Notes under the pieces: generated by a model
What the model saw: the letters and a program-made list of their open reading frames with translations, nothing else
Database searches by the model: none
Told to the model about the DNA's origin: nothing
DNA from: an uncultured Bacteroidales bacterium
Lineage (GTDB): Bacteria; Bacteroidota; Bacteroidia; Bacteroidales; UBA932
NCBI GenBank assembly: GCA_944323505.1
Contig: CALUST010000015.1
Span: 62,001 to 126,000 of the forward strand
Direction of reading: 5' to 3'
Length of the DNA: 64,000 nt
In this document: positions 9,321 through 48,875 of the stretch, one piece after another
Layout: each line of letters opens with the position of its first letter
Position numbering within the stretch: position 1 is the first letter of the stretch
Program-made: the position numbers and the translations under genes

Positions 9321-9339
9321 CAAGAGAAAAGGAATACAG

Positions 9340-17446: not shown

Positions 17447-18865
17447 ATGAAAAAGACATTAATATACAGTGGTGTTATCGCCGTCATTGCGGCAGGCCTT
17501 GTCTCCTGCGCAAATGACTATGAGAAATACGACAATTCGTATCTGCTTGACAATCCCGAGACCATGACCCTCCAGGCGTCATCGTCTGTGCTGGAACTGT
17601 TCGAGGATACTCCTGCCGACGAGGCTGTCCTGACATTCACCTGGACACCGGCACGCGAGATGTCCGATGAATACGATCTCAAGTATATCACATATCTTGA
17701 CTTGAAAGTCAACGGATTCGACGAGAATTCCGCACTCAGGACCGTGGAGAACCCGGGTGTGTTCGAGAAGTCCTATACCACGGAGCAGCTGCAGAACTAT
17801 ATCACCGAGAACTGGGGACAGTCTGTGTCCGAAGAGACCACCCTGTCATTCAAGGTGGTTGCCACATGGGAGGGCGGCACCAAGTACATCATGCCGGAAG
17901 TCCGTACAGTGGATGTTGACGTGCAGCCTTACAAGCCTCTCGTGTTTGACGCGGACGTGGTATATGTGTCAGGTTCTGCCAAGACAGGACTCGCAAAAGA
18001 GACTGTGGCAAGGACTCTTGAAAATGAATACCGCTATGCCAAGGTCGTCACACTCCAGCAGGGAGAACTTACGATTCCTACTGAGTATGACGGGGTGGTG
18101 CAGTATATTGCTCCGGAAGTCCCTGCGGACTTTGTGGACGGAGAGCCTGTACCTGCCAGGATGCTGCCTGAGAATCCTGATGAGACCGCTCCGGAAGAGG
18201 CAGGGTGGACCATCCCGGGAAGCGGAGACTACAGGGTGGTCGTGGATATGGAAAAGAAGACAGTCACCATCTATTCTCCGGACAACGAATTCAATAATCC
18301 GTTTACAGTAGAGTGGTATCCGAACTGCAACTTGTCATATAAGCCATACACGACCACGGTGACACAGCTGTGGATAAGGGGCGACGGTGCCATAAAGCCG
18401 GACGGAGGTACTTGGTATGAACTCGGAAACCCTCTGAATGTGAAACAGAGCGAGGCTGATCCGCAGATATTGGTGTATGACGGAGCGGCGTTGAAGTCTG
18501 GCAGAAATTCCTTTGCCATCATATCTCAATTGGAATATGATGCAAACGGAGACGGAACGAAAGAGACATTCGACTGCAACAACTCGTATGTCTTTGCCCC
18601 GACAAGGGTGGACTCCGACGGAAACGGCTATCATGACGGCCAGGGAGTCGACATCAACGGCAACGGGATACCTTCGGACAAGGGCGACGAGGAGGACGGT
18701 GTGTATACTAAAGATGCCAATCACGACGAGTCCGTGACTCTGGGTGTCTGGATGGACATGGACGGAGGCCCGGATATCCGAGGCAACTATTTCAAGACAC
18801 CTTCAGGATTGAACTTCATAGTGTTCGACCTCAGGAACATGAAAGTCAAGTTCGAGGTACGATAG
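17447..18865 (+). CDS. SusE-like surface glycan-binding lipoprotein
   Basis: 472-aa lipoprotein (lipobox ending at Cys21, GLVSCANDYEKYD). Residues about 38-165 form an Ig-like module with the SusE-type pattern: AVLTFTWTPAREMSDEYDLKY, then YTTEQLQNYITENWGQ, then LSFKVVATWEGG. The middle (about 170-290) is beta-rich. The C-terminal part (about 290-472) contains Asp/Asn-rich segments such as DANGDGTKETFDCN and DSDGNGYHDGQGVDINGNG, which resemble calcium-binding dockerin-like loops, and ends FIVFDLRNMKVKFEVR. That ending closely matches the second SusE-like protein at 24091, so the two are paralogues in both terminal parts. Position right after SusD supports a glycan-binding role. The specificity is unknown. 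Confidence 0.8.
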   Translation: MKKTLIYSGVIAVIAAGLVSCANDYEKYDNSYLLDNPETMTLQASSSVLELFEDTPADEAVLTFTWTPAREMSDEYDLKYITYLDLKVNGFDENSALRTVENPGVFEKSYTTEQLQNYITENWGQSVSEETTLSFKVVATWEGGTKYIMPEVRTVDVDVQPYKPLVFDADVVYVSGSAKTGLAKETVARTLENEYRYAKVVTLQQGELTIPTEYDGVVQYIAPEVPADFVDGEPVPARMLPENPDETAPEEAGWTIPGSGDYRVVVDMEKKTVTIYSPDNEFNNPFTVEWYPNCNLSYKPYTTTVTQLWIRGDGAIKPDGGTWYELGNPLNVKQSEADPQILVYDGAALKSGRNSFAIISQLEYDANGDGTKETFDCNNSYVFAPTRVDSDGNGYHDGQGVDINGNGIPSDKGDEEDGVYTKDANHDESVTLGVWMDMDGGPDIRGNYFKTPSGLNFIVFDLRNMKVKFEVR

Positions 18866-18957: not shown

Positions 18958-20673
18958 ATGTTGAGAAAAGCATTTTTCATACTTCTTTCTACGGCAGTGA
19001 TGGTTTCCTGTACGGAGAAGGAGCCGGATAACGGCGGTGGCGGCAGTTCCTGGGGAACAGACATCCCTGAGGGCAATGTCGAAGTGACTGTGCTTGCCGA
19101 CCGTCAGTCCCTTCTTCAGAATCCTCTGAGCGGGTGGGTCATCTACGTGCCGTTGATAGACGATGTCGCCAGATTCTGGAACGAGTACGAGAATTTCCAG
19201 TCTTCCGAAGGCACGGTGAATGTCTTTGACTACGGCAATGTCATCTATCTGCGCGGCTCATGGACTGACTTCAATCCTGAGGAGGGCGTATATATCTGGC
19301 AGGACGGAGTTGACGAGAACAAATATCCGCTGGCAAAAAGTCTCAGACTCTTCGAGGAGGGGGCGAAGGAGCGCGGACTGAAACTTGCTTTCACACTGAA
19401 GACAGACAGCCGCGACGCCAATGCCAACTGTACCCCGGACTTCGTCAAGCAGAAGATGGATGCCAAGTACGGTGCTGATGCCGCCGGAAATCTGACACCG
19501 GACGGGAAGACCCATACTCCGGGAAGAGGGTATTTCAATTTCACCCTTGGTTCGGAGCCGCGTCATTACTGGTCCCCGTATCCTGACGACCCTATCTTCC
19601 AGGAAGAGTATGAAAAATTCATCAATGCGCTTGCCGATGAATATGACGACCCTGAGAAGACCATGTTCATCAGCGGTCTCGGCATGGGCAAATGGGGAGA
19701 GTATCACACTTGTGTATATTCAACGGGTGACGCTTCCCCGAAGATAGATGTCTTCAACTGGGTGACTGACACTTATATCAACGCGTTCGAATATGTCCCT
19801 TGCTTCACGAACTACCACAAGATGGTGGGTACCATAGAGGGAGAAGGCACAGGTGATCCGGATTCTGCAGGAATGCTTGAGGGTGCAATCAACAAGGGAT
19901 TCTGCATGAGACACGATGCCTTCGGCATGAGGGCAGAGACATTCGGCTATGCCTCATGGGAGAAGAAGTTCATTGCTCCTTGGAAATTCAAGGTGCCGGT
20001 AGCCGGCGAAGGCGGATGGATTGTCACACAGGGCTATGTTGACGAAAACGGGAAGCACAACTATCTGACACAGTATGACACTCCTCGCGCCCTGCGCATC
20101 GGCGAGTATGAGGATATGAACAGTGCATACGTCAACATGATGGATCTCCGATATGACAAGTCATATACTGCGGGAGAGACATGGTCGTGGTTCAACGATG
20201 CCTTTGACTATGTGAAGAAGTTCGTCCAGGAGGACTGCTACAGGCTCTATCCTGACAAACTCACCATCCCGTCCAAGATTGTCAACGGCAAGACATACAC
20301 CATCCAGCACCGCTGGGCAAATATCGGCCATGCCTATTGTCCGACCAACATCAAGCAGTTCAAGGACCGTTTCAAGGTCGCATTTGCAGTGATGACTACC
20401 GAGGGGAAGATTGTCGGGGACAACATCTTCTTTGCCGAGGACGCGCATCCTCATGAGTGGACGAGCGAGAGCGGTAAGAAGAGTTATGAACTTGAGATAA
20501 CCCCTGACGACATACCTGCAGGCCCGTACAAACTTGCCGTAGGCATAGTTGACCTCGCTCTCGGCGACCCTGACAGCGGGGATTACAGGATAGGAATCAA
20601 TCTCGGTGCGCAGGGAGACTTCACTGAAGGCGGCTGGTTGCTGCTCGGAGATGTGGCTGTAGCCGATGAATAG
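18958..20673 (+). CDS. DUF4874/DUF4832-type lipoprotein, putative glycan-active enzyme (copy 1)
   Basis: 571-aa surface lipoprotein (lipobox VMVSC, Cys18, then acidic residues and a GGGG linker). The start region LLQNPLSGWVIYV and the segment VIYLRGSWTDFNPEEGVYIW (about residues 95-115) resemble the opening strands of a TIM-barrel glycosidase of the GH42/GH2 clan. Two Glu motifs are shared by all three copies in this window: GMGKWGE (Glu248) and GEGGWI (Glu351), in places where the acid/base and nucleophile of a retaining glycosidase would sit; NMMDLR follows. The C-terminal third (about 450-571) is a beta-sandwich. I assign it to the DUF4874 plus DUF4832 families from memory; the activity is unknown and the catalytic reading is inference. 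It has extra loops (about residues 160-195) compared with the others. Confidence 0.7.
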   Translation: MLRKAFFILLSTAVMVSCTEKEPDNGGGGSSWGTDIPEGNVEVTVLADRQSLLQNPLSGWVIYVPLIDDVARFWNEYENFQSSEGTVNVFDYGNVIYLRGSWTDFNPEEGVYIWQDGVDENKYPLAKSLRLFEEGAKERGLKLAFTLKTDSRDANANCTPDFVKQKMDAKYGADAAGNLTPDGKTHTPGRGYFNFTLGSEPRHYWSPYPDDPIFQEEYEKFINALADEYDDPEKTMFISGLGMGKWGEYHTCVYSTGDASPKIDVFNWVTDTYINAFEYVPCFTNYHKMVGTIEGEGTGDPDSAGMLEGAINKGFCMRHDAFGMRAETFGYASWEKKFIAPWKFKVPVAGEGGWIVTQGYVDENGKHNYLTQYDTPRALRIGEYEDMNSAYVNMMDLRYDKSYTAGETWSWFNDAFDYVKKFVQEDCYRLYPDKLTIPSKIVNGKTYTIQHRWANIGHAYCPTNIKQFKDRFKVAFAVMTTEGKIVGDNIFFAEDAHPHEWTSESGKKSYELEITPDDIPAGPYKLAVGIVDLALGDPDSGDYRIGINLGAQGDFTEGGWLLLGDVAVADE

Positions 20674-20689
20674 TCATGACTGACAAAAG

Positions 20690-22297
20690 ATGATGCTTAT
20701 GAGACTTTATAGAATTTTTTTACCCGCAGTCGCTGTTGCCTTGGTCCTGTCATGCTCGGCCAAGGCGGAGACTGATGCCGATGGAGGAGGGTCTTCGAAC
20801 GTGCCTCAGGGTAATGTGGAATTGAAGCCGACCGTGGACAGGACATCCGTCCTGAAGAACCCTATGACAGGATGGGTGATGTATGTCTCGGGCAGTTCCG
20901 ACCCGTCGTATTTCGATACGGAGTTCTATGTCCCGTCCCTCGGCAAGAATGTGCTGGTGAGGGACTATGCCTCCTGCTTCTATGTGAGGACCGGCTGGAA
21001 GACATTCAACCCGGAAGAAGGGAAATACTTCTGGCAGGATCCGGACAATGCCCTGTACAAACTGTACAAGAGGGCGCAGGAACTCGAGCTGCCGATGGCA
21101 TTCCGTGTGGTGGTCGACGGCAGGGACCAGAGGGAGAACACTCCTCAGTGGGTGTTTGACAAAGGCGCCCAGTACTGGCTTTCTGATAAGAATTATCCTG
21201 ACAGGAAGACACCTCTTGCCATAGATGAGACATGGAGAAAATGCTATGAGAAGTTCATAGAGGATTTCGCCGCAGAATTCAACGACCCTGACAAGCTGGC
21301 GTTCATAGATGCCTACGGACTCGGCAAGTGGGGCGAGGGCCACAATGTCTGCTATGAGCAGAACAATGCGGAGACTGCCATGACCGAGACATATAAGGAG
21401 GATACCATGAGATGGATTACCGGCCTGTATTCCAGATGTTTCACCAAGGTGCCTCTGGTCATCAACTACCATCGTCAGATAGGGTGTCCTGTCAGCGAGG
21501 GCAAGGAAGCCAATCCGAACAGCGAGAAGGTGCTCCAGATAGCCTTGGACAACGGCTATTGCCTCAGGGCAGACTCTTTCGGCATGACCAACCAGGACTG
21601 GGGGTACAATGACTGGGAGAGAGGCTATGTCGAGCAGTGGAAATACAAGGTGCCCATCATCATGGAGGGCGGCTACATTGTAAATCAGCATTCATACTGG
21701 AATGACCCTAAGGGATACCGGCAGGGTCATCCTGAGGATGTCCGCAAAGGAGAGTTCGAAGAGTCTCAGGGCGCGTGCGTGAACATGATGGATTTCCGTG
21801 TCGGCGACGAGACCAAATCATGGTTCGAGGATGCATTTACCTATGTGCAGCGGTTCATCGAGGAGGGAGGCTACCGCCTTTATCCTGAGAAAGTCTCTGT
21901 CCCTCAGAATGTGGGGGCTGGAGAGGATGCCGTTGTGACTTCCACATGGAGAAATCTCGGCTGGGGCTATTGTCCGACCAATCTCAAGCAGTGGGACCAG
22001 AAATACAAGGTCGCCTTTGCCCTGCTGGACATGCAGACAGGCGAGCCTGTATATGAATACATTGACGAGAAGACCGACCTGTCCAAATGGCTCAACGGGA
22101 ACCCGGCAAAGTATGAGTTCGAGATTCCGTTCAAAGGTGTGGCAGTAGGGGCCTACACATGGGCCGTGGGCATCGTAGACAAGACCAAGGCGGACGGGAA
22201 CGGCATCCACGAGATAGGTATCCGCCTTGCAGTCAGCAAGGACAGCCAGACTGATGACGGCTGGGTCCGCCTGACAAATGTGACAGTACAGAAATAG
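20690..22297 (+). CDS. DUF4874/DUF4832-type lipoprotein, putative glycan-active enzyme (copy 2)
   Basis: 535-aa paralogue of the preceding gene and its immediate neighbour (16 nt). Three ATGs lie close together (20690, 20693, 20699). The signal ends ALVLSC, then a Ser/Gly linker. Shared features are VLKNPMTGWVMYV, FYVRTGWKTFNPEEGKYFW, MAFRVVVDGRDQRENTPQW, GLGKWGE with Glu216, IMEGGYI with Glu326, and NMMDFRVGDETKSWFED. The C-terminal beta-sandwich begins around VSVPQNVGAGEDAVVTSTWRN, where the phrase GWGYCPTNLKQWDQKYKVAFALLD is nearly the same as in copy 3. Copies 2 and 3 are clearly closer to each other than to copy 1, so at least two duplications have occurred. The function is not known; I infer a surface glycosidase or lyase. 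Confidence 0.7.
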   Translation: MMLMRLYRIFLPAVAVALVLSCSAKAETDADGGGSSNVPQGNVELKPTVDRTSVLKNPMTGWVMYVSGSSDPSYFDTEFYVPSLGKNVLVRDYASCFYVRTGWKTFNPEEGKYFWQDPDNALYKLYKRAQELELPMAFRVVVDGRDQRENTPQWVFDKGAQYWLSDKNYPDRKTPLAIDETWRKCYEKFIEDFAAEFNDPDKLAFIDAYGLGKWGEGHNVCYEQNNAETAMTETYKEDTMRWITGLYSRCFTKVPLVINYHRQIGCPVSEGKEANPNSEKVLQIALDNGYCLRADSFGMTNQDWGYNDWERGYVEQWKYKVPIIMEGGYIVNQHSYWNDPKGYRQGHPEDVRKGEFEESQGACVNMMDFRVGDETKSWFEDAFTYVQRFIEEGGYRLYPEKVSVPQNVGAGEDAVVTSTWRNLGWGYCPTNLKQWDQKYKVAFALLDMQTGEPVYEYIDEKTDLSKWLNGNPAKYEFEIPFKGVAVGAYTWAVGIVDKTKADGNGIHEIGIRLAVSKDSQTDDGWVRLTNVTVQK

Positions 22298-22330
22298 ACA
22301 ACGTTTAACTAATAACTAACTGGACGTAAT

Positions 22331-24091
22331 ATGAAAAAGTATTTCTTTTATGCAGCGGCAGCGTTTGCGATAGCAAGTCTTGCCGGTTGTAAGAATGACA
22401 ACCTTGAGGAAGAGACTCCGCAAGGTCCGGAAATCAATGGTGAAGCCACCATGACACTTGAGACTCCGAAGGATGTGGTCCTTGACAAGACCAAACCGAC
22501 AGAGGCAGCACTCACATTTGCGTGGACTGCAGCCCGCGAGCTTCCGGAAGAGTATGTGCTTACCTATACTGCAGAACTCAATCTGGCTTCAAGCAAGGAC
22601 TGGTCTGCGGCAGACAAGAAAGAACTTGATGCGGATGTGCTCACACTTTCCTATACCAACGCAGATCTTCAGAAACTCCTTGTGGAGACATGGAAGCAGA
22701 CAGCCGGCACGGCAGTTGAACTCCAGTTCCGTGTGACTGCCTCCTGGACAGGCGGAGCAGAGAAGGCTGAGCCTGAGGTGCAGACTGTGAAAGTGAAGGT
22801 GACTCCGTATGCTGAAGAAGGGACAGACCCTGAGCCTGAGGAGCCTGAGACAACCATCACCATCACTCCGAGTGCTAACAATGTGACTCTTGAAGAGGCC
22901 AAGGATGAAGAGGTAGCCCTCTCATTCACTTGGGCCATTGACACAGAGACTCCTGAGGGATACACTCTCACCTACACGGCAGAACTTACAAAGGCATCCG
23001 ATGCAGAATTTGCGGAGGCAAAGAAGATTGAGAATATCTCTGCCGATGCAGCCAAGGCGGAATACTTCACAAAAGACCTGCAGCAGTGGATTACTGAAGT
23101 GTGGCTGGTGAGCGGAACAGCCGAACTTGCTTTCCGCGTTACTGCCAACTATGCAGGCGAGGGTGAGGCTATCGAGCCTGTCACAGCCGTTGCCAAGGTG
23201 AAAGTGACAACCTACACTCCTGCCCCTGAAAACGTGGAACTCACAGACTTCACAGTGGCAGGCGCTACATTTAACGGAGCCGGCATCTCCAATGTCGCCG
23301 CTACCCAGGCTTATGAGAACGAGGCATTGTATGCAGCCCTCCAGACTCTCACTACGGGCGAACTCACAATCGCCGTGACAGACGGAGCTGGCAGGAACGG
23401 TTATCTCGCCCCTGCTGAGGGAGAAGGCGCTTTCTCTGACGGTACAGCCGTGCCATACAAGGTGATGTCGCAGCCTTTTGCATGGGGATTCTCTGAGAAT
23501 GACGAGAACCGCCTCATAATCAACACTACAGACAAGACCCTGACTATCTACGCCTCTAAAAATGAGTTCAACAAGCCGTATTATGTTGAGTTTAATTATG
23601 CAAAACGGGAGACAAACGGATGGACTCTTGCCAGGACCTGTACTTCAGGGAATTATTATATGAGGTCGAATGATTCCGGGGATTCCTGGGCAGGTAAACC
23701 ATATAATTTCACTCAATCTTTGGCTGATCCTCAAGTGCTTGTATGCACAGACAAAGTTTCATTCGGCTCAGCAAAGTTCCATATTAAATTAGGCATTACC
23801 ATCTCAGACTATGTTATTGTCACACAGGGGACAGAAGGAGATAATCCGACTACTGACGGTAAGGCAAATTTTTCTGGAAGAAGTTATGGATTTGCTCCGC
23901 TTAAGGCAACGAACAGTATCGGAGGAAGAGATATGGGATGTCCATACGTATCCGGAGAATGGATGTCTATGGAAGAGGGAGTGTCAATAAACAGTAAATG
24001 GTGGACTTTCCCGAATGATACAAAAGTGGATCTCAGCATGGTGATCATTGACCTCAGGAACATGAGAGCAAAATTCGTGAGTGCAGAATAA
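22331..24091 (+). CDS. SusE-like lipoprotein with two tandem Ig modules
   Basis: 586-aa lipoprotein (IASLAGC, Cys20, followed by KNDNLEEE). It carries two SusE-type modules in a row: residues about 38-163 (AALTFAWTAARELPEEYVLTY and LQFRVTASWTGG) and about 175-300 (VALSFTWAIDTETPEGYTLTY and LAFRVTANYAGEG), joined by an acidic Pro/Glu linker EEGTDPEPEEPE. The C-terminal half (about 310-586) is a probable glycan-binding domain ending SMVIIDLRNMRAKF, like the other SusE-like protein. DNA around 23580-23960 is more AT-rich and less biased in codon use than the flanks, as if the binding domain had a different history. It is probably a second surface glycan-binding protein, analogous in place to SusF. 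Confidence 0.78.
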   Translation: MKKYFFYAAAAFAIASLAGCKNDNLEEETPQGPEINGEATMTLETPKDVVLDKTKPTEAALTFAWTAARELPEEYVLTYTAELNLASSKDWSAADKKELDADVLTLSYTNADLQKLLVETWKQTAGTAVELQFRVTASWTGGAEKAEPEVQTVKVKVTPYAEEGTDPEPEEPETTITITPSANNVTLEEAKDEEVALSFTWAIDTETPEGYTLTYTAELTKASDAEFAEAKKIENISADAAKAEYFTKDLQQWITEVWLVSGTAELAFRVTANYAGEGEAIEPVTAVAKVKVTTYTPAPENVELTDFTVAGATFNGAGISNVAATQAYENEALYAALQTLTTGELTIAVTDGAGRNGYLAPAEGEGAFSDGTAVPYKVMSQPFAWGFSENDENRLIINTTDKTLTIYASKNEFNKPYYVEFNYAKRETNGWTLARTCTSGNYYMRSNDSGDSWAGKPYNFTQSLADPQVLVCTDKVSFGSAKFHIKLGITISDYVIVTQGTEGDNPTTDGKANFSGRSYGFAPLKATNSIGGRDMGCPYVSGEWMSMEEGVSINSKWWTFPNDTKVDLSMVIIDLRNMRAKFVSAE

Positions 24092-24122
24092 CACATATCT
24101 TTTTTAGGTAGTTTTTTGTGCG

Positions 24123-24159
24123 GGAGAGTGCGGGCACAGGTTCCGTGCTCTCCTTTTTT
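24123..24159 (+). terminator. Rho-independent terminator inside the PUL
   Basis: Arms 24123-24133 (GGAGAGTGCGG) and 24143-24153 (CCGTGCTCTCC) pair over 11 bp with two G-U pairs, with a 9-nt loop and six T directly after (24154-24159). It lies 13 nt before the DUF4886 start codon, so that gene must depend on readthrough or on a promoter I could not find. Confidence 0.75.
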
Positions 24160-24172
24160 CAAATCAGCGAAA

Positions 24173-25345
24173 ATGAAGAAGACAGCAAATATTTTCAGGA
24201 CATTGGTGATGTCCTTGGCGGCAGCCGTCATGTTCGCCGGCTGCTCCGAGAAGAAAGATATCGTGCCTCTGAGCGACAAATGGATGCTGGTGGAGACGAA
24301 CTGGAGCATAGGCGAGGAGGATGAGATCGTGATAACCCCTACATTCAGCAGCGAGGAGGTTCGCCAGCTGGATTATGTGTGGACATCCTCCGACCCTGAC
24401 ATCGTGGAGATCATAGAGGACAACAACTCCAGCATAACGATACTGGGTGTGAGCGCCGGCAACACACAGATTACTGTCGAATGCCCGGGCGAGACCAAGA
24501 GGCTCTCTGCCACTCTCAATGTGTCGGTGTCAGCCGCCCCGCTCAGGATATTGGCCATAGGCAACAGCTTCTCCCAGGATGCCATTGAGCAGTATCTGTG
24601 GAATATGTTCAATGCCGTGGGTGTCGAAGCCGTGATAGGCAATATGTACATCGGAGGGTGCTCCCTTGAAAGACACTGGTCCAACGCCGAGTCCGGCGAT
24701 GCCGCATACGAGTACCGCAAGGTGGTCAAAGGCGAGAAGACCAATTCAAAGAATGTGGCCCTTGAGACCGCTCTCGCCGATGAGAACTGGGACTATATCA
24801 GCGTACAGCAGGCCAGCGACTATTCCGGCATGTATGACGAGTACGAGCCGTACCTTACCGACCTTGTCGGCTATGTCAGGTCAAAGGCTACCAACAAGAA
24901 CGTGAAGATACTTTTCCACCAGACCTGGGCGTATTCCAAGGATTCCAATCACCAGTCCTTCCCTAACTATGACAAGGACCAGATGAAGATGTACAACGGG
25001 ATTGTGGATGCCGCCAAAAAGGTCATGGAGAAAGGCAACATTGATATTCTCATCCCGAGCGGGACAGCCATCCAGAACGGCAGGACATCCTACATCGGGG
25101 ACGAGTTCGACAGGGACGGCTACCATCTCAACGAGCAGTACGGCCGATTCACGGCTGCCTGCACATGGTACCAGTCTCTCATCGGCTATGAGAATATCAC
25201 GGTAAGTGCCCTCGACAACACATTTGTACCGGCGAGTGTCGATGACAGCCAGGCATCAGTGGCAAGGAATGCCGCAGTCTATGCCGTCCAGAAACCGTAT
25301 GAAGTGACAGACATGTCATCATTCACCGCCCCTTCTGAAGAGTAG
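24173..25345 (+). CDS. DUF4886 SGNH-hydrolase-like lipoprotein with N-terminal Big2-like domain
   Basis: 390-aa lipoprotein, start ATG 24173 (an upstream frame to 24116 runs through the terminator and is rejected). Lipobox AVMFAGC (Cys21). Residues about 30-118 look like a bacterial Ig-like Big2 domain (LDYVWTSSDPDIVEI, VSAGNTQITVEC). Residues about 122-370 are the DUF4886 domain: block I ILAIGNSFSQDA with Ser132 as nucleophile, IGGCSLERHW, YISVQQASDYSG, HQTWAY, and a block-V-like DRDGYHLN with the Asp and His expected of an SGNH triad. This suggests an esterase that removes acyl groups from glycans. The same domain recurs fused to GH3 at 40191. It ends before a strong terminator, closing the first PUL unit. 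Confidence 0.8.
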   Translation: MKKTANIFRTLVMSLAAAVMFAGCSEKKDIVPLSDKWMLVETNWSIGEEDEIVITPTFSSEEVRQLDYVWTSSDPDIVEIIEDNNSSITILGVSAGNTQITVECPGETKRLSATLNVSVSAAPLRILAIGNSFSQDAIEQYLWNMFNAVGVEAVIGNMYIGGCSLERHWSNAESGDAAYEYRKVVKGEKTNSKNVALETALADENWDYISVQQASDYSGMYDEYEPYLTDLVGYVRSKATNKNVKILFHQTWAYSKDSNHQSFPNYDKDQMKMYNGIVDAAKKVMEKGNIDILIPSGTAIQNGRTSYIGDEFDRDGYHLNEQYGRFTAACTWYQSLIGYENITVSALDNTFVPASVDDSQASVARNAAVYAVQKPYEVTDMSSFTAPSEE

Positions 25346-25375
25346 ACGGGTCCGGTCTTTTGAAGAAAGACGTTT

Positions 25376-25419
25376 GAGAGGGCGGGTCAAAATCAGACCC
25401 GTCCTCTCTTACCTTTTTT
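25376..25419 (+). terminator. Rho-independent terminator closing the first PUL unit
   Basis: Arms 25376-25388 and 25396-25408 form a 13-bp stem (one G-U; GAGAGG outer, GGGTC inner) with a 7-nt loop, followed by TTACCTTTTTT ending at 25419. Confidence 0.88.
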
Positions 25420-25487
25420 GTCCCTATTCCGTACAAAGATATAAAACAAAACGCAATTTGATATTGTCTTTTGATAGTGCCAATTAG

Positions 25488-25518
25488 TTGCAGCATTAGG
25501 GAAAATTGTTTACATTTG
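25488..25518 (+). promoter_or_regulatory. Promoter of the second PUL unit
   Basis: TTG at 25488-25490, a 20-nt spacer and TACATTTG at 25511-25518 form a full Bacteroidota promoter, directly downstream of the terminator and about 60 nt before the GH3 start. Confidence 0.65.
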
Positions 25519-25579
25519 TCCGCGATTGTGTACGAACACAGTCAGGACTGCATATTAACATTGAAACAATTTTCATACT

Positions 25580-28126
25580 ATGACCGTAAGACGAATCCTG
25601 CTGCCGGTTCTGGCAATTTCTGGGATTATCCTCAGCACAAATGCGTTTTCACAGGAAACAGGGACTGACATCCCGGAAGATGTGGCAAAAGTTGTCATCA
25701 CAAGGGAGGACAGCCTGAGGGCTGCCGAACTCGTGTCGAAGATGACGCTTGAAGAGAAAATCAGTTACATCGCGGCCGAAAGGTCTTTCTATCTCCGCCC
25801 TATCGAGAGGCTCGGAATACCTGCAATAAGGATTGCTGACGGGCCTGTCGGCATCAGAAACAACACCAGAAGCACGCTCTATCCGTGCGGGACATTGACC
25901 GCATCCACATGGAACAAGGACCTGGCATTGCGGCTTGGACACGGTCTCGGGCAGGACGCCAAGGCACGCGGTGTGCACATCCTCCTCGGTCCGGGAGTCA
26001 ACATCTACCGTGCCCCGATGCTCGGAAGGAACTATGAATACTTCGGAGAGGACCCTTACCTCACTTCCGAGACAGCCAAGCAGTATATCCTCGGAGTCCA
26101 GGATGAGGGCGTCATGGCCGTGGTGAAGCATTTCGTGGCCAACAACCAGTTGGAGCCGTCCCGCCACAGCGTAAGCTCCGACGTGGACGAGAGGACTCTC
26201 CATGAGATATATTTCCCTGCATTCAGAAAGGCCGTCCAGGAGGCCGGAGTCGGCTCTGTCATGGACAGCTACAACCTTGTGTGGGGACTGCATTCCACTG
26301 AACATCCGTGGCTTAACATAGAGATTCTCCGCAACATGTGGGGATTCGACGGTATCGTCATGTCCGACTGGACTTCTGTCTACTCCACTTCCGGCGCAGC
26401 CAACGGCGGTCTTGACCTTGAATGTCCGAAGGCGGTGTATTTCACTCCTGAAAGGATACTTCCGCTCATCGAGTCCGGAGTGATCGAGGAGCGTGTCATC
26501 GACGAGAAAGTGCAGCATCTTCTGCAGACATTCTCGGCATTCGGATTCCTTGATGCCCCGATTCTCGACACTTCCATCCCTGAGAACAACCCTGCATCTC
26601 GTCAGACGGCCCTCGACATCGCACGTGAGGGCATAGTGCTCCTCAAAAACGGTGAGGCAGACGGCAAGAGCCCGCTTCCTCTGCGCAAGGGACGCATCCT
26701 TGTGCTCGGTCCGAACGCCGACATCATCCCTACTGGAGGCGGCAGCGGCTTCGTGACCCCTATCTCAACTGTGTCCGTATATCAGGGACTCAAGAATGCA
26801 AGAGGAGAGAAGAATGTGGAGCTGCTTTCTGATGCGGCTCTCTACAAGGATATAATCCCTGAGATCAGGACTGCTGCCGAGGGCGGCGAACAGGGATTCA
26901 CTGTCCGCTACTACAATAACGTGCGTCCTGAGGGAGAGGTCTTCCACGAGGGCAGGGAGACAGTCATCGACCATTCATGGGGCTACGGCTCCCCTATGGA
27001 AGGAATGCCGGATGACAAGTTCTCGGCTGCATGGAGAGGTTATTATACGGCCAAGACAGACGGAACGGTCCGCTTTGAGATGGCAGGTGACGACGGCTAC
27101 AGGGTGAGCGTCGACGGCAAGGTGCTCGGCGGTGACTGGGGCAACCACTCCTATTCCACCAGGACGGCGTTCCTTGATGTGGAGGCAGGCAAGACATACG
27201 ACATACTTTTCCAGTTCTTCGACAATGCAGGCGAGGCCAAGACTTCCTTCAAGGCCGGTCTGATGGACAAGACCCTGCTTGAGGCAGCCCTTGACAAGGC
27301 ATCCTCAGTGGTGTTCTGTGCCGGATTCAACAGCAATACAGAGGGCGAGGGCTGGGACAGGCCGTTTGCCCTGCCTAAGGCACAGACCGACCTTATCCGC
27401 CAGATAGCAGCCATGCACGACAATGTGACTGTGGTCATCAATGCCGGAGGCGGAGTCGATTTCCGTGGCTGGACAGATGACGTGGGGGCAGTCCTGATGG
27501 CATGGTATCCAGGTCAGGAGGGAGGTACGGCTGTGGCCGACATCCTCACCGGCAAGGTCTGCCCGAGCGGCAAGCTTCCTGTTTCCATCGAATGCAGTTG
27601 GGAGGACAATCCTGTCCACGACAGCTACTATGACGTGAAGAAGCGCGTCACCTACACCGAAGGCGTGTTCGTCGGCTATCGCGGACATGACAGGAAGGCA
27701 GATGCCGAAGAGGTGTGGAATACCGGCAAATGCTGGCCGGAAGGGGTGTACTATCCGTTCGGATACGGACTGAGCTATACTTCATTTGAATATTCGGGAC
27801 TCGCTCTGCGCAAGATTTCCGACACGCAGGTTGAGGTAAGTTTCGACATCACCAACACTGGAAAGACGGACGGCAGTGAGTCCGCCCAAATCTATGTGGG
27901 GGACGTCGAGTCTTCGGTCAGGAGGCCTCTTATGGAACTGAAAGGCTATGAAAAGGTGTTCGTGAGGAAAGGCGAGACTGTCCGTGTCACGACAGTCCTC
28001 GACGAGGAGGCATTCTCATTCTTCGACATCGCCTCTAAGAAATTCGTGGTCGAGCCTGGCACATTCAGGATATATGTCGGGCCGTCATCTGCAGAACTCC
28101 CTCTGAGGCAGGAAATTGAATTGTAA
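25580..28126 (+). CDS. GH3 beta-glucosidase-type glycoside hydrolase with PA14 insert
   Basis: 848-aa secreted exo-beta-glycosidase. The signal peptide ends near residue 26 (STNAFSQ). The GH3 N-terminal barrel includes RIADGPVGIR, KHFVANNQLEPSRHSV (substrate-binding Lys-His) and GFDGIVMSDWTS with Asp263 as nucleophile. A PA14 domain (about residues 436-570; FTVRYYNN, FEMAGDDGYRVSVDG) is inserted in the C-terminal sandwich, as in many beta-glucosidases where it shapes access for short substrates. The sandwich resumes at SSVVFCAGFNSNTEGEGWDRP, and a fibronectin-III-like domain closes the protein (YPFGYGLSYTSFEY). The protein is typical in size. It is the first gene of a unit that runs to 33895 with gaps under 25 nt. 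Confidence 0.93.
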   Translation: MTVRRILLPVLAISGIILSTNAFSQETGTDIPEDVAKVVITREDSLRAAELVSKMTLEEKISYIAAERSFYLRPIERLGIPAIRIADGPVGIRNNTRSTLYPCGTLTASTWNKDLALRLGHGLGQDAKARGVHILLGPGVNIYRAPMLGRNYEYFGEDPYLTSETAKQYILGVQDEGVMAVVKHFVANNQLEPSRHSVSSDVDERTLHEIYFPAFRKAVQEAGVGSVMDSYNLVWGLHSTEHPWLNIEILRNMWGFDGIVMSDWTSVYSTSGAANGGLDLECPKAVYFTPERILPLIESGVIEERVIDEKVQHLLQTFSAFGFLDAPILDTSIPENNPASRQTALDIAREGIVLLKNGEADGKSPLPLRKGRILVLGPNADIIPTGGGSGFVTPISTVSVYQGLKNARGEKNVELLSDAALYKDIIPEIRTAAEGGEQGFTVRYYNNVRPEGEVFHEGRETVIDHSWGYGSPMEGMPDDKFSAAWRGYYTAKTDGTVRFEMAGDDGYRVSVDGKVLGGDWGNHSYSTRTAFLDVEAGKTYDILFQFFDNAGEAKTSFKAGLMDKTLLEAALDKASSVVFCAGFNSNTEGEGWDRPFALPKAQTDLIRQIAAMHDNVTVVINAGGGVDFRGWTDDVGAVLMAWYPGQEGGTAVADILTGKVCPSGKLPVSIECSWEDNPVHDSYYDVKKRVTYTEGVFVGYRGHDRKADAEEVWNTGKCWPEGVYYPFGYGLSYTSFEYSGLALRKISDTQVEVSFDITNTGKTDGSESAQIYVGDVESSVRRPLMELKGYEKVFVRKGETVRVTTVLDEEAFSFFDIASKKFVVEPGTFRIYVGPSSAELPLRQEIEL

Positions 28127-28149
28127 GTCAAACCAAAGGAACCATATTG

Positions 28150-29673
28150 ATGAAAAAGACTGTATTGATGGTCGCCGCAGCCATTCTTCTTTGCGGGATG
28201 ATGTCTTCTTGCTCCACATCATCAAGGTCAATGACCGATGTCACACTCCAGCCGGACACGACAACAGTGCTCCGCAACCCTCTCAACGGCTGGGCCATGT
28301 ATCTCGGCCGCAACTGGGACGAGAACTTCTGGAAGACGCAGCATTATGACAGCATGCCGACTTCCGAAGGTACCGAGGTCCGTGTCTCCGACTATGCCTC
28401 GGCAGCATACATCCGCACGAGCTGGGCTTCTCTTGAGCCGCAGGAGGGGGTCTACACATGGCGCGACACCACATCGAGAATCTACCGTCTGTTCAAGTCA
28501 TGTACTGACAGGGGGCTCAGGCTGGCATTCCGCATCGTGGTTGACGGACGTGACCAGGGACAGAACACCCCGATGTATGTGATAGACGCAGGGGCGGAAT
28601 ACTATACTTCCGGCAACGGGCGTCACAAGTCCCCTTATCCTGACGATCCTGTCTTCCAGGAGAAATACGCGAAGTTCATCAAGGCTCTTGCCGAGGACTT
28701 CAATGACAGGGACAAGGTCGATTTCATTGATGCGTTCGGTCTCGGGAAATGGGGCGAGTCGCATGCCATGATATACAAGGATCCTGCAAACAAGATAAAG
28801 ACATTTGACTGGATCACATCCCTCTACTCGGAGACATTCACTGAGGTGCCTCTGATTGTGCACTATCACAGGCTTCTTGCCGACATGAACAAGGACAGTT
28901 GGGGACCAGTGTCTCCGGATACCGACACCCTGCTCCAGATGGCTATCGACAGGGGATATTCCTTGCGTCATGACGCCTTCGGCATGACCGGATATTATCA
29001 GGACTGGGAGAAAGAGTTCGCGAAGAAATGGAACTACAGGCTCCCGATCATCTTTGAAGGCGGGTGGATCACGGCCGCTCACCACAGGTATTGGATTGAC
29101 CCGAGCGGGAAATACCGTCAGGGGCACTCCGAGGATGTGCGCAGAGGTGAATTCGAGGCTGCTGCCGAGACACATGTGAATATGATGGACCTCCGTGTCA
29201 ATGACGAGACAAAGTCATGGTTCGGGGACTGCTTCGATCTCGTCAAGAGGTTCGTGGCTGAGGGCGGGTACCGTCTCTATCCGGACTTGGTGTCTGTCCC
29301 TGCGGAAGTGAAATCCGGCGAGACCGTCAAGGTCAGCCACAGATGGAACAATCTCGGCTGGGGCTATTGCCCGAACAACATCAAGCAGTGGAACTACAGG
29401 TACAAGGTGGCATTTGCCCTGCTGGATGCCGACGGCAATGTGGTGACGGAGTATGTCGACACCGAGTCCGAGCCGTCAGAGTGGATCAAAGGCACTCCGG
29501 TATCGTATGATTTCAGATTCAGGCTTGGCAATGTGCCTGCAGGCGAATATACGTGGGCTATCGGTCTCGTGGACACCACAAAAGACAATAATATCGGCCT
29601 TGAGACGGCGGTGTCACGCGACAGGGTCACCCTTGAAGGATGGTGCACTGTCCTCCCTGTCACAGTAAAATGA
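28150..29673 (+). CDS. DUF4874/DUF4832-type lipoprotein, putative glycan-active enzyme (copy 3)
   Basis: 507-aa lipoprotein; ATG 28150 begins MKKTVLMVAAAILLCGMMSSC (Cys21). It is the third member of the paralogous set and lacks the Gly-rich linker. Motifs: VLRNPLNGWAMYLG, AYIRTSWASLEPQEGVYTW, LAFRIVVDGRDQGQNTPMY, GLGKWGE with Glu203, IFEGGWI with Glu303, GHSEDVRRGEFE and NMMDLRVNDETKSWFGD. The C-terminal sandwich has GWGYCPNNIKQWNYRYKVAFALLD. It is encoded between GH3 and GH88, inside the enzyme unit rather than next to SusCD, which supports an enzymatic role. The fold and catalytic pair are inferred by motif placement only. Confidence 0.7.
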   Translation: MKKTVLMVAAAILLCGMMSSCSTSSRSMTDVTLQPDTTTVLRNPLNGWAMYLGRNWDENFWKTQHYDSMPTSEGTEVRVSDYASAAYIRTSWASLEPQEGVYTWRDTTSRIYRLFKSCTDRGLRLAFRIVVDGRDQGQNTPMYVIDAGAEYYTSGNGRHKSPYPDDPVFQEKYAKFIKALAEDFNDRDKVDFIDAFGLGKWGESHAMIYKDPANKIKTFDWITSLYSETFTEVPLIVHYHRLLADMNKDSWGPVSPDTDTLLQMAIDRGYSLRHDAFGMTGYYQDWEKEFAKKWNYRLPIIFEGGWITAAHHRYWIDPSGKYRQGHSEDVRRGEFEAAAETHVNMMDLRVNDETKSWFGDCFDLVKRFVAEGGYRLYPDLVSVPAEVKSGETVKVSHRWNNLGWGYCPNNIKQWNYRYKVAFALLDADGNVVTEYVDTESEPSEWIKGTPVSYDFRFRLGNVPAGEYTWAIGLVDTTKDNNIGLETAVSRDRVTLEGWCTVLPVTVK

Positions 29674-29686: not shown

Positions 29687-30892
29687 ATGAAAAGAATATG
29701 TCTTGCCTTCGCGGCATTGTCGGTACTTGCCGTATCATGCTGCCGCACCGAATCCATGGAGGAACTGACCGGGAGGGTCTTTGACCGTGCTGCGGAACAG
29801 TATGCCCTGCTGGATGCCAATCTTGATGCTGCCAGACCGGCTGAAGGTGTCACTGTATGTCCGAGATATGCCGGACAGGACGGGCAGCTGGTCACTTCAA
29901 ATATATGGTGGTGGTGCTCCGGGTTCTATCCCGGCTCCCTCTGGCTCGTCTATGAATATACGGGAGATGACCATTTCCGCGAGATGGCAGTCAGGCGCAC
30001 TGAGGTGCTGGATTCGCTCAGGTTCAGGACCAATGACCACGATGTCGGCTTCCAGTTGAACTGCAGTTACGGCAACGGGCTGAGATTGACCGGCAACGAC
30101 GCATACAAGGATGTCCTCTGTGACGGGGCGCATTCCCTTGCCACAAGGTTCAATCCGGCTGTCGGCTGTGTCAGGAGCTGGGATCCTGCCCCTGACCATA
30201 TCGCCGCATGGAAATTCCCTGTCATCATAGACAATATGATGAATCTCGAACTGCTCCTCAAGGCCTCTGAACTGTGCGGGGATGCAAGCCTCAGGGAGGT
30301 GGCCGAGAGCCATGCGATGACCACCATGAAGAACCATTACAGACCGGACGGGAGCAGTTTCCATCTCGTGGACTACAATCCTGAGACCGGCGAGGTGCTG
30401 GTGCAGCAGACAGTGCAGGGCTTTGCCGACTGGTCCGCATGGTCCCGCGGCCAGGCATGGGGACTGTATGGGTTTACCATGATGTATCAGTATACCGGGG
30501 AGCAGAAGTATCTTGACCATGCGGCAAAGATTGCCGACTATCTCATACCGAGGCTCCCGGAGGACGGGGTGCCGTATTGGGACTATGATTCCGACCTGGT
30601 ACCGGATGATCTGAGGGACGCATCGGCAGGTGCCATCATGGCCAGCGCGCTTGTTCAGTTGAGTACGTATGTCGCCGAGGACAAGTCGGAGGAATATCTT
30701 TCTGTCGCAGAGCGGATTATCCGTACTCTCGCCTCGGATGAGTACCTTGCGGCCCCGGGAGAGGAATGCGGTTTCCTCCTGAAGCACTGTGTCGGCAACA
30801 AGCCGGGCGGAGTGGAAGTCGATGTCCCTCTTACATACGCAGACTATTATTTCCTTGAAGCCCTTCTGAGGTACAAGGCTTTGTCAGAATAG
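29687..30892 (+). CDS. GH88 unsaturated glucuronyl hydrolase
   Basis: 401-aa lipoprotein (signal ending VLAVSC). GH88 enzymes hydrate the C4-C5 double bond of an unsaturated uronic acid at the non-reducing end, releasing it as a keto acid. An (alpha/alpha)6 barrel is expected across the whole length. Key motifs: WWWCSGFYPGSLWLVYEYTGD, TNDHDVGFQLNCSYGN with Asp119, and PVIIDNMMNLELL with Asp182; these match the two essential Asp residues of the family. Other conserved stretches are WSRGQAWGLYGFTMMYQYTG and RDASAGAIMASALVQLS. GGAG 3 nt before the ATG may act as a weak ribosome site. The substrate normally comes from a polysaccharide lyase, and none is recognisable in this locus. GH105 is the main alternative, but the motifs fit GH88 better. 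Confidence 0.9.
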   Translation: MKRICLAFAALSVLAVSCCRTESMEELTGRVFDRAAEQYALLDANLDAARPAEGVTVCPRYAGQDGQLVTSNIWWWCSGFYPGSLWLVYEYTGDDHFREMAVRRTEVLDSLRFRTNDHDVGFQLNCSYGNGLRLTGNDAYKDVLCDGAHSLATRFNPAVGCVRSWDPAPDHIAAWKFPVIIDNMMNLELLLKASELCGDASLREVAESHAMTTMKNHYRPDGSSFHLVDYNPETGEVLVQQTVQGFADWSAWSRGQAWGLYGFTMMYQYTGEQKYLDHAAKIADYLIPRLPEDGVPYWDYDSDLVPDDLRDASAGAIMASALVQLSTYVAEDKSEEYLSVAERIIRTLASDEYLAAPGEECGFLLKHCVGNKPGGVEVDVPLTYADYYFLEALLRYKALSE

Positions 30893-30907: not shown

Positions 30908-33895
30908 ATGAGGTATCTGTATTTGTCTTTTGTCATTTTTCTTTCCGCGTCGCTCTGTGTCCTGGCAAAAGATGCCGACAGGGAGATGGACAGGTTCATC
31001 GACAGTCTCATGTCGCAGATGACCATTGAGGAGAAGGCCGGGCAGACCAGCCTTGTCACATGGGACAGGAAATATATGACCGGGGATGCGCTGAGCAGCG
31101 GCGTGGCGCAGAAAATTGTCAGCGGTCAGGTGGGCGGAGTGTTCAATGTCCGTACCCCCGAAGAGAAAAAGATGATACAGCAGCTGGCCGTGGAGAAGTC
31201 GCGGCTCGGGATACCTCTGCTGTTCGGTCTTGATGTCGTGCATGGCTACAGGACCATCTGGCCCATCCCGCTTGCCCTGTCCTGCAGCTGGGACATGGAC
31301 CTGATTGAAAGGACTGCCCGTGCCGCAGCGGATGAGGCTACTTCCGAAGGCATAGACTGGACATTCTCCCCGATGGTCGACATAGTCCGCGACCCGAGAT
31401 GGGGACGTGTGGCTGAGAGTTCCGGGGAAGACCCGTATCTCGGTTCATGCGTTGCCGAATCCATGGTCAGGGGCTATCAGGGAGACAACCTTGCCGACCC
31501 GGTGTCAATCATGGCCTGCGTGAAGCATTTCGCATTGTACGGGGCAGCCGAGGGCGGCAGGGACTATGATTCCGTGGACATGAGTCTGGAGAAGATGTAC
31601 CAGACCTATCTGCCGCCGTACAAGGCTGCCGTGGATGCAGGGGCGGGCAGTGTGATGACCTCGTTCAACGACATCAACAATGTCCCTGCGACAGCAAACA
31701 GGTGGCTGCTTACCGACCTCCTCAGGGACGAGTGGGGATTTGACGGATTCACAGTCAGCGACTATACCTCTGTCGGGGAACTTGTGGCCCACGGTCTTGG
31801 CGACCTGGCTCAGGTCTCTTCCCGTGCATTGAAGGCCGGTCTCGACATGGATATGGTGTCAGAAGGGGTAATCGGGAATCTTGACGAGTGCCTGGAGAAA
31901 GGATATGTCACGGAGAAGGATATTGATGCCGCCTGCAGGCGTGTGCTTGAGGCGAAGTACAGGCTCGGACTCTTCGATGACCCGTATCTGAGGATGGGAC
32001 GTGACCCTGTGGCGCGGGATACATATCGCGGGCTTGCTCTGGAGGCTGCGAGGAAGTCGATAGTCCTCCTGAAGAATGAAAATGATGTCCTGCCTCTGGC
32101 AAAAGATACCAGGGTGGCTCTGATAGGCCCTCTCACTGACACAAAGTGGGAACTTATGGGCACATGGGCCGGGGCGGCGGCAAGGGCCGATGAAGGAGTG
32201 TCAATAAGAAGCGGCATATCCCGTTACACGTCATCTGTCTTGCAGGCGGTCGGCGCACCTGTCACTGACAACCGCGACCTTGCGAGGATGATAGAATACA
32301 ATGTCGACAGGGTGGGGAATCCAGACAGTCTGATAGCGGAGGCGGTGGATGTCGCCATGCAGGCTGATGTGGTGGTCGCAGTCCTCGGGGAGACGGCAAA
32401 GATGTCAGGAGAGTCTTCGAGCATGACATACATCGGGCTCCAGCCGACTCAGAAAAGGCTGCTGGAGGCTCTTGTGGACACAGGCAAGGATGTGGTCCTC
32501 GTGCTGCTGAACGGCAGACCGATGACCCTCGAATGGGAGAATGAGCATTGCGAGGCCATTGTGGATGCCTGGGCTCCAGGTCTGCAGGGGGGCAATGCTG
32601 TCGCGGATGTGCTTTTCGGAGAGTACAACCCTTCCGGCCGTCTGACGATGACGTTCCCGAGGAATGTCGGTCAGATACCGGTACATTATGACATGAAGAC
32701 TACAGGACGGCCTCATATCCCGTTCAGAAGATACCGCACAGGCTATATCGACTGCAGCATCGAGCCGCTTTATCCGTTCGGATACGGGTTGAGTTACTCG
32801 AAAGTGGAATATTCCGACCTCAAGGTAGAAGCTCATTCAGCATCGGACATCATTGTGTCCGTGACTGTCCGCAATACCGGCGGGATGCAGACCGAAGAGA
32901 CGGTGCAGGTATATGTCGGCGACCCCGTAGCATCCGTCACCAGACCTGTCAAGGAACTCAAGGCATTCAGGAAAGTGAGTCTCGCACCGGATGAGACGGT
33001 GACGGCCTCTTTCCGTCTGGACGAGGATGACCTGAAGTTCTGGAACAGCAGTCTTGAATATGTCTGGGAGCCGGGCACGTTCGTCATCGAAGCCGGTCCG
33101 GACTCGAAGAATACCCTTAGGGCTGAAATATACCTTGACAAGTCTCCGAAGTATGATGTCTATCTGTGTATCGGACAGTCCAATATGGCCGGCCGGGGAG
33201 AAATGCTGCCTGCGGACGCCGGTCTTATTGACGGGGTCCGGATTCTCGATGCCCGGGACAGCATAGTGCCCGCAGCGGCACCGCTCAACAGATATTCGAC
33301 TGTCAGAAAGAATCTTTCCATGCAGGGAATTAATCCGGCATGGTCTTTTGCCAAGGACGTTTACGAGGCTAATGGCCGGCCGGTCCTGCTTGTGGTAAAT
33401 GCAAGAGGCGGCTCGTCTCTTGACGAATGGATGAAATCCTATGAGGAAGAATACCGGTTCAGCGAGAAGATGGCTGATGACCCTGAGAGAGAAGGGCAGA
33501 AGATGCCATCGATGTATCAGGAGGCTGTCCGCAGATGTCGCGAGGCCATGAGACATGGGGAATTGAGGGCAATTCTATGGCATCAGGGGGAAAGCGATTC
33601 GTCTCCTGAAAAGGCTGCGGACTATGCCGACCGTCTGAAAGCGTTTGTCACAGACCTGAGAAATGACCTCGGAGCCCCGGATGTCCCTTTCATCATCGGG
33701 GAGGTAAGCAGAAATTACTCGGATGCCGCGAGAATCAACAAGAAACTTCATCGCGCAGCGAAGATTATCCCGAGCTGTTATTGTGTGTCCAGCGAGGGAT
33801 GCGGGACCAATGCTGACAATGTGCATTTTTCCCGTGACGGACAGATTCTCCTCGGGCAGCGTTATGCGCGTCAGGTCCTTGATTGTCAGCAGTGA
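30908..33895 (+). CDS. GH3 glycoside hydrolase fused to a SASA-type (SGNH) carbohydrate esterase
   Basis: 995-aa secreted bifunctional enzyme. A short signal peptide ends near LCVLAK (residue 19). The GH3 part covers residues about 20-640: GLDVVHGYRTIWPIPLALS, RDPRWGRVAESSGEDPYL, CVKHFALYGAAEGGRDYDSV, and GFTVSDYTS with Asp285 as nucleophile. A fibronectin-III-like domain follows (about 645-735). Residues about 745-995 are a sialate-O-acetylesterase/SASA domain: VYLCIGQSNMAGRGE with Ser758, AILWHQGESDSSPEKAADYA, and a final ADNVHFSRDG with the catalytic Asp/His pair. Such fusions couple deacetylation with removal of a beta-linked sugar. The natural end of the esterase fits the stop at 33895. 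The coding sequence is continuous with no frameshift. Confidence 0.9.
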   Translation: MRYLYLSFVIFLSASLCVLAKDADREMDRFIDSLMSQMTIEEKAGQTSLVTWDRKYMTGDALSSGVAQKIVSGQVGGVFNVRTPEEKKMIQQLAVEKSRLGIPLLFGLDVVHGYRTIWPIPLALSCSWDMDLIERTARAAADEATSEGIDWTFSPMVDIVRDPRWGRVAESSGEDPYLGSCVAESMVRGYQGDNLADPVSIMACVKHFALYGAAEGGRDYDSVDMSLEKMYQTYLPPYKAAVDAGAGSVMTSFNDINNVPATANRWLLTDLLRDEWGFDGFTVSDYTSVGELVAHGLGDLAQVSSRALKAGLDMDMVSEGVIGNLDECLEKGYVTEKDIDAACRRVLEAKYRLGLFDDPYLRMGRDPVARDTYRGLALEAARKSIVLLKNENDVLPLAKDTRVALIGPLTDTKWELMGTWAGAAARADEGVSIRSGISRYTSSVLQAVGAPVTDNRDLARMIEYNVDRVGNPDSLIAEAVDVAMQADVVVAVLGETAKMSGESSSMTYIGLQPTQKRLLEALVDTGKDVVLVLLNGRPMTLEWENEHCEAIVDAWAPGLQGGNAVADVLFGEYNPSGRLTMTFPRNVGQIPVHYDMKTTGRPHIPFRRYRTGYIDCSIEPLYPFGYGLSYSKVEYSDLKVEAHSASDIIVSVTVRNTGGMQTEETVQVYVGDPVASVTRPVKELKAFRKVSLAPDETVTASFRLDEDDLKFWNSSLEYVWEPGTFVIEAGPDSKNTLRAEIYLDKSPKYDVYLCIGQSNMAGRGEMLPADAGLIDGVRILDARDSIVPAAAPLNRYSTVRKNLSMQGINPAWSFAKDVYEANGRPVLLVVNARGGSSLDEWMKSYEEEYRFSEKMADDPEREGQKMPSMYQEAVRRCREAMRHGELRAILWHQGESDSSPEKAADYADRLKAFVTDLRNDLGAPDVPFIIGEVSRNYSDAARINKKLHRAAKIIPSCYCVSSEGCGTNADNVHFSRDGQILLGQRYARQVLDCQQ

Positions 33896-36151: not shown

Positions 36152-36163
36152 AGATAATTGCTG

Positions 36164-40089: not shown

Positions 40090-40098
40090 CAGATTCTG

Positions 40099-40127
40099 AT
40101 TCCTCCCGCAAAAACGGGAGGAATTTT
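40099..40127 (+). terminator. Rho-independent terminator after the beta-glucuronidase gene
   Basis: ATTCCTCCCG (40099-40108) and CGGGAGGAAT (40115-40124) form a perfect 10-bp stem with a 6-nt loop; TTTTA follows. It closes the third PUL unit. A weak promoter-like TAAATTTA lies at 40148-40155 ahead of the next gene. Confidence 0.65.
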
Positions 40128-40190
40128 ACGGACAAGCGATTTTTATATAAATTTACAGCCGGAAAACAAAAATCGGTAAAACCACACGAA

Positions 40191-46230: not shown

Positions 46231-46256
46231 CATCCGTAAAAAAACTATTGCAGAAG

Positions 46257-48869: not shown

Positions 48870-48875
48870 ATCAAT

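Follow-up and report, generated by a model that had tools for sequence, protein, structure and literature searches.

Within a 64,000-nucleotide stretch of DNA from an uncultured Bacteroidales bacterium (assembly GCA_944323505.1, contig CALUST010000015.1, positions 62,001 to 126,000; hereafter the window), a Sus-type glycan locus encodes three related lipoproteins, which we call A, B and C. We consider it very likely that all three are active glycoside hydrolases (GH) of the DUF4874-DUF4832 type, in which an invariant pair of glutamates acts as acid and as base or nucleophile. In the mechanism we propose, each protein would consist of a barrel followed by a C-terminal beta-domain, and catalysis would be carried out by the Glu pair, which in C is E204 and E304. 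The initial cleavage of the backbone would fall to A and B, at the cell surface with the SusC, SusD and SusE proteins. In the periplasm, C would have a related role alongside an exo-acting GH3 enzyme, to which its relatives are fused in some loci. For this division of labor and endo action taken jointly we see slightly better than even chances, and we regard the explanation as a whole as likely. If true, it would assign a likely role to a DUF family and account for the backbone cleavage that is otherwise missing from a locus type found in records from Muribaculaceae, Prevotellaceae, Rikenellaceae, Dysgonomonadaceae and Chitinophagaceae. It would also connect this locus type with the one DUF4832 protein that has been tested, an enzyme that disperses biofilms.

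A, B and C share 36.6-47.9% pairwise identity and each has a lipobox Cys by a rule-based call. A preliminary description, made from the letters of the window alone, had located two Glu motifs and an NMMD motif in all three lipoproteins, and re-reading the sequence returned the same positions. A has GMGKWGE with E248, EGGWI with E351 and NMMD at 393, and B has GLGKWGE with E216, EGGYI with E326 and NMMD at 365. In C the residues are E203, E303 and NMMD 344 when counted from the ATG at 28150, or E204, E304 and NMMD 345 when counted from the TTG at 28147, the numbering used for C below. The two Glu are 103, 110 and 100 residues apart in A, B and C, respectively. No further copies of any of the three motifs occur in the six frames of the whole window, and no further family member was found in the genome of origin (1.93 Mb, ~90% complete). 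Calling these proteins DUF4832-type, as had been done at that stage, was right but marginal: the Pfam model (PF16116) matches at the C-terminus with 20.0, 27.8 and 25.7 bits for A, B and C by hmmscan, against a curated cut-off of 29.2, and B scores 29.7 bits in the genome search. NCBIfam models matched none of the three.

To place these proteins in a family we searched one genome per species (84,980 species) for relatives of C, using a scan that rests on short exact peptide patterns and so picks up close relatives. Thirty-one loci were recovered, all Bacteroidota by title except one titled Clostridium, which clusters among Bacteroidota rows of the tree; this record (L022, titled Clostridium sp.) holds a Bacteroidales-type locus and is probably mislabelled or a mixed genome bin. 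We aligned 49 window-type proteins, comprising the window's own three and those from the loci, some of them cut by locus ends and other hits being omitted. Both Glu are invariant in 49/49, so the motif pattern is not due to chance, and H206, H241, N345 and D348 (C numbering) are likewise found in all 49. For comparison, DUF4874 was found in 13 of 296 genomes of a phylum sample, giving 17 loci, and 15 canonical DUF4874-DUF4832 proteins were aligned after omission of L042 (96% identical to L040) and L046 (81% identical to L047). G-x-W-G-E and the second Glu are present in 15/15, and the first motif is also present in the two omitted proteins. The Glu pair, whose conservation across DUF4832 proteins the preliminary description had raised, is therefore invariant in every window-type and canonical protein sampled.

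Profile comparison places the two sets in one superfamily. Aligned with hhalign, they match over 410 columns (Prob 90, E 1.5e-6), with E204 on canonical E171 and E304 on E273, and the real score is 54.1, whereas none of 60 column shuffles scored above 32.9. Two bridge proteins, L065 and L069, give hits with the window-type profile as well as with the Pfam DUF4832 model. In a 12-row superfamily alignment every row has E204, and Glu makes up 90% or more of the E304 column, where one or more bridge rows are misaligned. MAFFT put the second Glu of L069, and probably that of L065, in the wrong column of the superfamily alignment, and the second-Glu column was therefore taken from hhalign. Near strand 7 we read, by eye, LEICY in L065 and L069 and SIEVG in L074 and L075. 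At E up to 10, a DUF4832 match is seen in 41 of the 49 window-type proteins, and the DUF4874 model gives weak hits in 8 and otherwise misses them. Judged from these alignments, A, B and C are members of the DUF4874-DUF4832 superfamily, with homology over barrel and tail and both Glu in register. Like canonical proteins (PF16173 plus PF16116), the window type has a C-terminal DUF4832 and G-x-W-G-E, with the second Glu 98-128 residues further on (102-132 in the canonical set), and an Asn near strand 8 is common to both types in the 12-row alignment but not in hhalign. The types differ at the second Glu, where E-G-G-[WY] in the window type corresponds to G-E-[TS] in the canonical set, and NMMD is a feature of the window type only.

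The preliminary description had also anticipated a barrel, with Glu residues after strands 4 and 7 and a C-terminal sandwich, and had asked for structure prediction. All of these features appear in the AlphaFold2 models of A and C. The model of C (predicted local distance difference test score, pLDDT, 93.4; predicted template modeling score 0.89) is a (beta/alpha)8 barrel with strands at 48-53, 84-92, 125-131, 191-195, 236-239, 271-278, 301-305 and 346-349, followed by a C-terminal beta-domain from residue 377. Its first Glu lies in a loop 9 residues past strand 4 and E304 lies within strand 7. The model of A (pLDDT 87.0) also has a barrel and a C-terminal beta-domain, with strands 235-239, 348-350 and 394-398 in places matching those of C; E248 follows strand 4, E351 is just past strand 7 and NMMD is at strand 8. 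When the models were compared with solved structures using Foldseek, the best 50 matches of each were all glycosidases by title, one being a complex containing one. For C these are led by the GH14 beta-amylase 1b90 (E 3.6e-11) and then GH35 enzymes, with a GH5 endoglycoceramidase at rank 30. For A they are led by GH35 enzymes, endoglycoceramidases and PslG, and GH14 is not among the best 50. Sequence searches of solved structures gave no hits with the canonical set; window-type hits to a lysine hydroxylase/halogenase, an ephrin receptor and Fer kinase were at chance level (best E 0.032) and were set aside. As a separate observation, D276 of C (window position ~28972), at the end of strand 6, is present in 48/49 window-type proteins and aligns, both in hhalign and in the 12-row alignment, with canonical D239, present in 15/15; it is a possible third active-site residue.

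The Glu pair had been read in the preliminary description as the hallmark of retaining clan GH-A glycosidases. If A, B and C were ordinary beta-glycosidases of that clan, the strand-4 Glu would be the acid/base and the strand-7 Glu the nucleophile. The predicted models do have the (beta/alpha)8 barrel and a Glu at the end of strand 7, as in GH42 and GH35 beta-galactosidases, and GH35 and GH5 enzymes are among the Foldseek matches, GH35 with good rank. Moreover, the window-type alignment matches four GH42 proteins over C residues 50-232 (strands 2-4) with Prob 78.5, E 1.7e-5 and a score of 49.3, where none of 60 shuffles exceeded 23.1, and 10 of the 49 members give weak Pfam GH42 hits (best E 0.0022). 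In clan GH-A, however, the residue just before the acid/base Glu, where strand 4 ends, is Asn; here the residue before the first Glu is Gly in 49/49 window-type and 15/15 canonical proteins. The Asn-Glu of GH42 aligns on A196-F197 of C, which puts the GH42 acid/base on F197, 7 residues before E204. The clan GH-A assignment is thus not supported at the acid site, and we consider ordinary clan GH-A membership unlikely.

The first Glu is instead in register, though weakly, with the acid Glu of the beta-amylases of GH14, a family that is inverting and exo-acting. Against a two-sequence GH14 profile the window-type set gives only Prob 5.2 and E 0.0075, with a score of 30.2 against a shuffle maximum of 29.0, and the GH14 acid Glu falls on E204 in this alignment (GLGPAGE in soybean, SGGPAGE in B. 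cereus, GLGKWGE in C). The solved GH14 chain 1v3h has Gln at the position aligned with E204, as expected of a mutant in what we take to be the acid site. Likeness to GH14 (1b90, 1btc) further includes the best Foldseek match of C and a Glu pair in the barrel. Unlike GH14, the GH14 base motif G-E-N-A is not common to A, B and C, and PF01373 matches neither these nor any of the 49 window-type members, nor anything in 99 genomes of the phylum, the genome of origin included. Global alignment of the window-type set with GH14 gave nothing, and the canonical set gave no such match to GH14; this last result, together with the better score of GH42, counts against a strong GH14 claim. We place the family in neither clan GH-A nor GH14, although its acid site looks more like that of GH14 beta-amylase than that of clan GH-A.

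Published work on the superfamily supports hydrolysis. In a 2025 study, SIR_1591 of Streptococcus intermedius, a DUF4832 protein with a barrel encoded in a pel operon, is described as an active hydrolase: it is reported to disrupt preformed Pel aggregates, like the hydrolase domain of PelA, and beta-amylases and beta-galactosidases were also among the enzymes named when the authors compared structures (PMC12345266). According to the authors the aggregates it targets are rich in alpha-1,4-N-acetylgalactosamine, which is a further point against reading A, B and C as ordinary clan GH-A beta-glycosidases, and deletion of the gene gave no phenotype in their tests (PMC12345266). DUF4832 genes are described adjoining pel clusters in streptococci and clostridia (PMC7112168), and a DUF4874-DUF4832-dockerin protein is described in a cellulosome producer (PMC7480376). 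The window-type proteins sit in Sus-type loci, in contrast to SIR_1591 in its pel operon. The preliminary description had called the family unassigned. This stands insofar as no numbered GH family for DUF4832 appears in the portions consulted of the literature on GH14 and new families and on Pel and barrel enzymes, but glycosidase activity of a DUF4832 protein has been in print since 2025 (PMC12345266) and is already known. New here are the two-compartment pattern and the GH3-C fusion pattern described below. That the proteins form an unnumbered GH family with a beta-amylase-like acid site, acting as the endo-cutter of a recurring Bacteroidota locus of otherwise exo-enzymes and doing so in two compartments, with A and B as surface lipoproteins and C as a periplasmic form that some lineages fuse to the GH3, is a combination we offer tentatively, at somewhat less than even chances.

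In Bacteroidota, acidic residues after the lipobox Cys are reported to mark surface lipoproteins (PMC5080379, PMC6222051). The lipobox of A (SC|TEKEPDNG) is surface-export-like, that of B reads SC|SAKAETDA, and that of C (SC|STSSRSMT) lacks acidic residues, so C is probably periplasm-facing. We applied a rule of at least two D/E within eight residues after the lipobox Cys to groups of A-, B- and C-type proteins assigned by tree and best matches; the rule misses the B-type protein of L028, which is acid-rich by eye, and scores the L019 fusion as having a lipobox. A-type proteins pass in 12 of 13 cases (10/10, plus 2 of 3 with N-termini cut by locus ends), in comparison to none of 17 C-type proteins and none of five GH3-C fusions. 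The difference between 10/10 and 0/17 gives a Fisher p of 1.2e-7 with rows taken as independent although they are related. A second C-like paralogue group passes in 6 of 7. L033 has no lipobox, L034 has a lipobox without acidic residues, and the partial C-like frame of L027 has no lipobox. The A group contains a single clade (7 rows, support 100/99), with other A-type proteins outside the tree, and A-type and C-type proteins occur in the same locus in Prevotella, Muribaculaceae and other records. From these signals we read a surface cutter (A-type) and a periplasmic cutter (C-type), two jobs kept apart.

The possibility that A, B and C are surface glycan-binding proteins on a dead barrel would fit the position of A and B among SusD- and SusE-like proteins and their C-terminal beta-domain. 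It seems to us very improbable, given that both candidate catalytic Glu are invariant, that C-type proteins are GH3-fused in some loci and lack surface signals, and that the locus already has SusD and two SusE. The fusions were found in 5 of the 31 loci (L012, L017, L018, L019 and L020; Pfam on three), where GH3 and the C-type protein form one polypeptide. In the window the two are adjacent genes, and we take the fusions as strong evidence of joint work. A relative of SusC or SusD is found in 22/31 loci within the fetched flank.

The locus, as set out in the table, supports the earlier statement that it has no recognizable endo-enzyme: at the Pfam level (E up to 0.01), no known endo-hydrolase or lyase family was matched among the 16 genes of 12286-45797. 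A, B and C could nevertheless be hydrolases that are exo-acting, or that trim side chains or oligosaccharides, rather than backbone cutters. Beta-amylase and GH35 beta-galactosidase, which head the fold matches, act in exo mode, and the C-type adjoins GH3 and looks periplasmic. On the other hand, the A-type looks surface-exported and lies beside SusE, the window locus offers no other endo candidate by Pfam, and SIR_1591 disrupts whole aggregates (PMC12345266). Exo action or trimming is, in our view, a doubtful alternative to backbone cutting.

Table. Genes of the glycan locus (window coordinates)
Feature	Position	Strand	Basis or remark
SusC-like TonB-dependent transporter	12286..15474	+	profile match
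SusD-like glycan-binding lipoprotein	15494..17422	+	Pfam
SusE-like lipoprotein 1	17447..18865	+	Pfam
Protein A, lipoprotein of 571 amino acids	18958..20673	+	E248, E351, NMMD, modeled barrel
Protein B, lipoprotein of 535 amino acids	20690..22297	+	E216, E326, NMMD; fold by homology to the A and C models
SusE-like lipoprotein 2	22331..24091	+	Pfam
DUF4886 protein	24116..25345	+	Pfam
GH3 (PA14, Fn3-like)	25580..28126	+	Pfam; relatives fused to C-type in five other loci
Protein C, lipoprotein	28147/28150..29673	+	508 amino acids from TTG 28147 or 507 from ATG 28150
GH88-like	29687..30892	+	Pfam
GH3 (BglX type) and SASA esterase domain fusion	30908..33895	+	BglX model above NCBIfam cut-off
Flavin adenine dinucleotide (FAD)-dependent oxidoreductase	34286..36151	+	Pfam; recurrent in related loci
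Melibiase/GH36-like	36158..38263	+	weak family match
GH2	38260..40089	+	nearest model beta-glucuronidase, below cut-off
DUF4886-GH3 fusion	40086..43175	+	Pfam
GH2	43236..45797	+	nearest model beta-galactosidase GalB, below cut-off

Several results weigh against endo-acting hydrolases in two compartments. Template modeling scores by query length are 0.25-0.43 among the matches listed, and at such modest values the Foldseek matches show a kind of fold and not a family; the root-mean-square deviation exceeds 12 Å over gapped alignments to solved enzymes. C is 13-17% identical to the four canonical rows of the 12-row alignment. The window's own genome was the only one in the 296-genome sample to yield full-length window-type proteins, and the subgroup is therefore not a common one. 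B-type proteins are mixed with respect to export, passing the rule in 5 of 12, and tree support is weak for the B set (90/54) and for two C sets (83/96 and 87/89). Related locus L033 carries a GH28-like gene, and an endo-enzyme may exist in some versions of the locus. The activity section on SIR_1591 shows no active-site mutant (PMC12345266). We infer catalysis, endo action and substrate for A, B and C from sequences and models, and their location from signal motifs.

To look at the neighborhood in relatives, genes were annotated by similarity to window genes and by Pfam for representatives: in the loci, 9 of 109 unmatched open reading frames, one GH2-like frame and four DUF4832-bearing frames; in longer stretches, nine frames; and in the window, one frame. 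With this partial Pfam coverage, absence of endo-enzymes in relatives is not claimed. The longer stretches, ten of ~20 kb each, came from 9 of 12 genomes searched. Melibiase-like and first GH2 genes are present in eight of them (L081-L085 and L087-L089), representing 8/9 genomes, and a GH3 relative is found in seven of these eight (not L085). The FAD oxidoreductase recurs in 6/10 (L081-L085 and L088) and also in L028, next to L087; in the window this protein has a weak Golvesin_C match, below cut-off. L086 has few genes in common with the window locus and L090 has none.

GH88 enzymes require unsaturated uronate ends, and none of the locus genes matched a lyase family that could supply this usual substrate to the GH88-like gene product. 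A, B and C might be polysaccharide lyases, or cleave by another non-hydrolytic route, and feed this neighbor. However, 6 of the 8 further stretches carrying melibiase-like and GH2 genes have no GH88 relative, Glu residues following strands 4 and 7 form a pattern of hydrolases, and SIR_1591 is reported as a hydrolase (PMC12345266). We regard lyase action as highly unlikely and hydrolysis as the preferred reading.

Two of the GH3 proteins carry putative esterase domains, with DUF4886 in front in one and SASA behind in the other, and these fusions suggest an acylated substrate. A glucuronyl-esterase-like gene is present in related locus L089 and an AXE1 gene in L082. In the Niabella records L033 and L034, several locus genes are spread over two or more frames, a pattern of the kind seen with sequencing indels or with decay. 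SusC is split in both records, together with a GH3 in L033 and with SusD and the end of the DUF4832 gene in L034.

Beside the glycan locus, window positions 46200-57916 hold an iron/haem-like set consisting of imelysin, di-haem oxidoreductase, cytochrome c assembly, TonB receptor, DUF4374 and PepSY proteins, with an orphan protein at 46200 that is without a Pfam match. Elsewhere in the window, at 9265-11847, a single frame of 860 amino acids holds both FeoA and FeoB domains.

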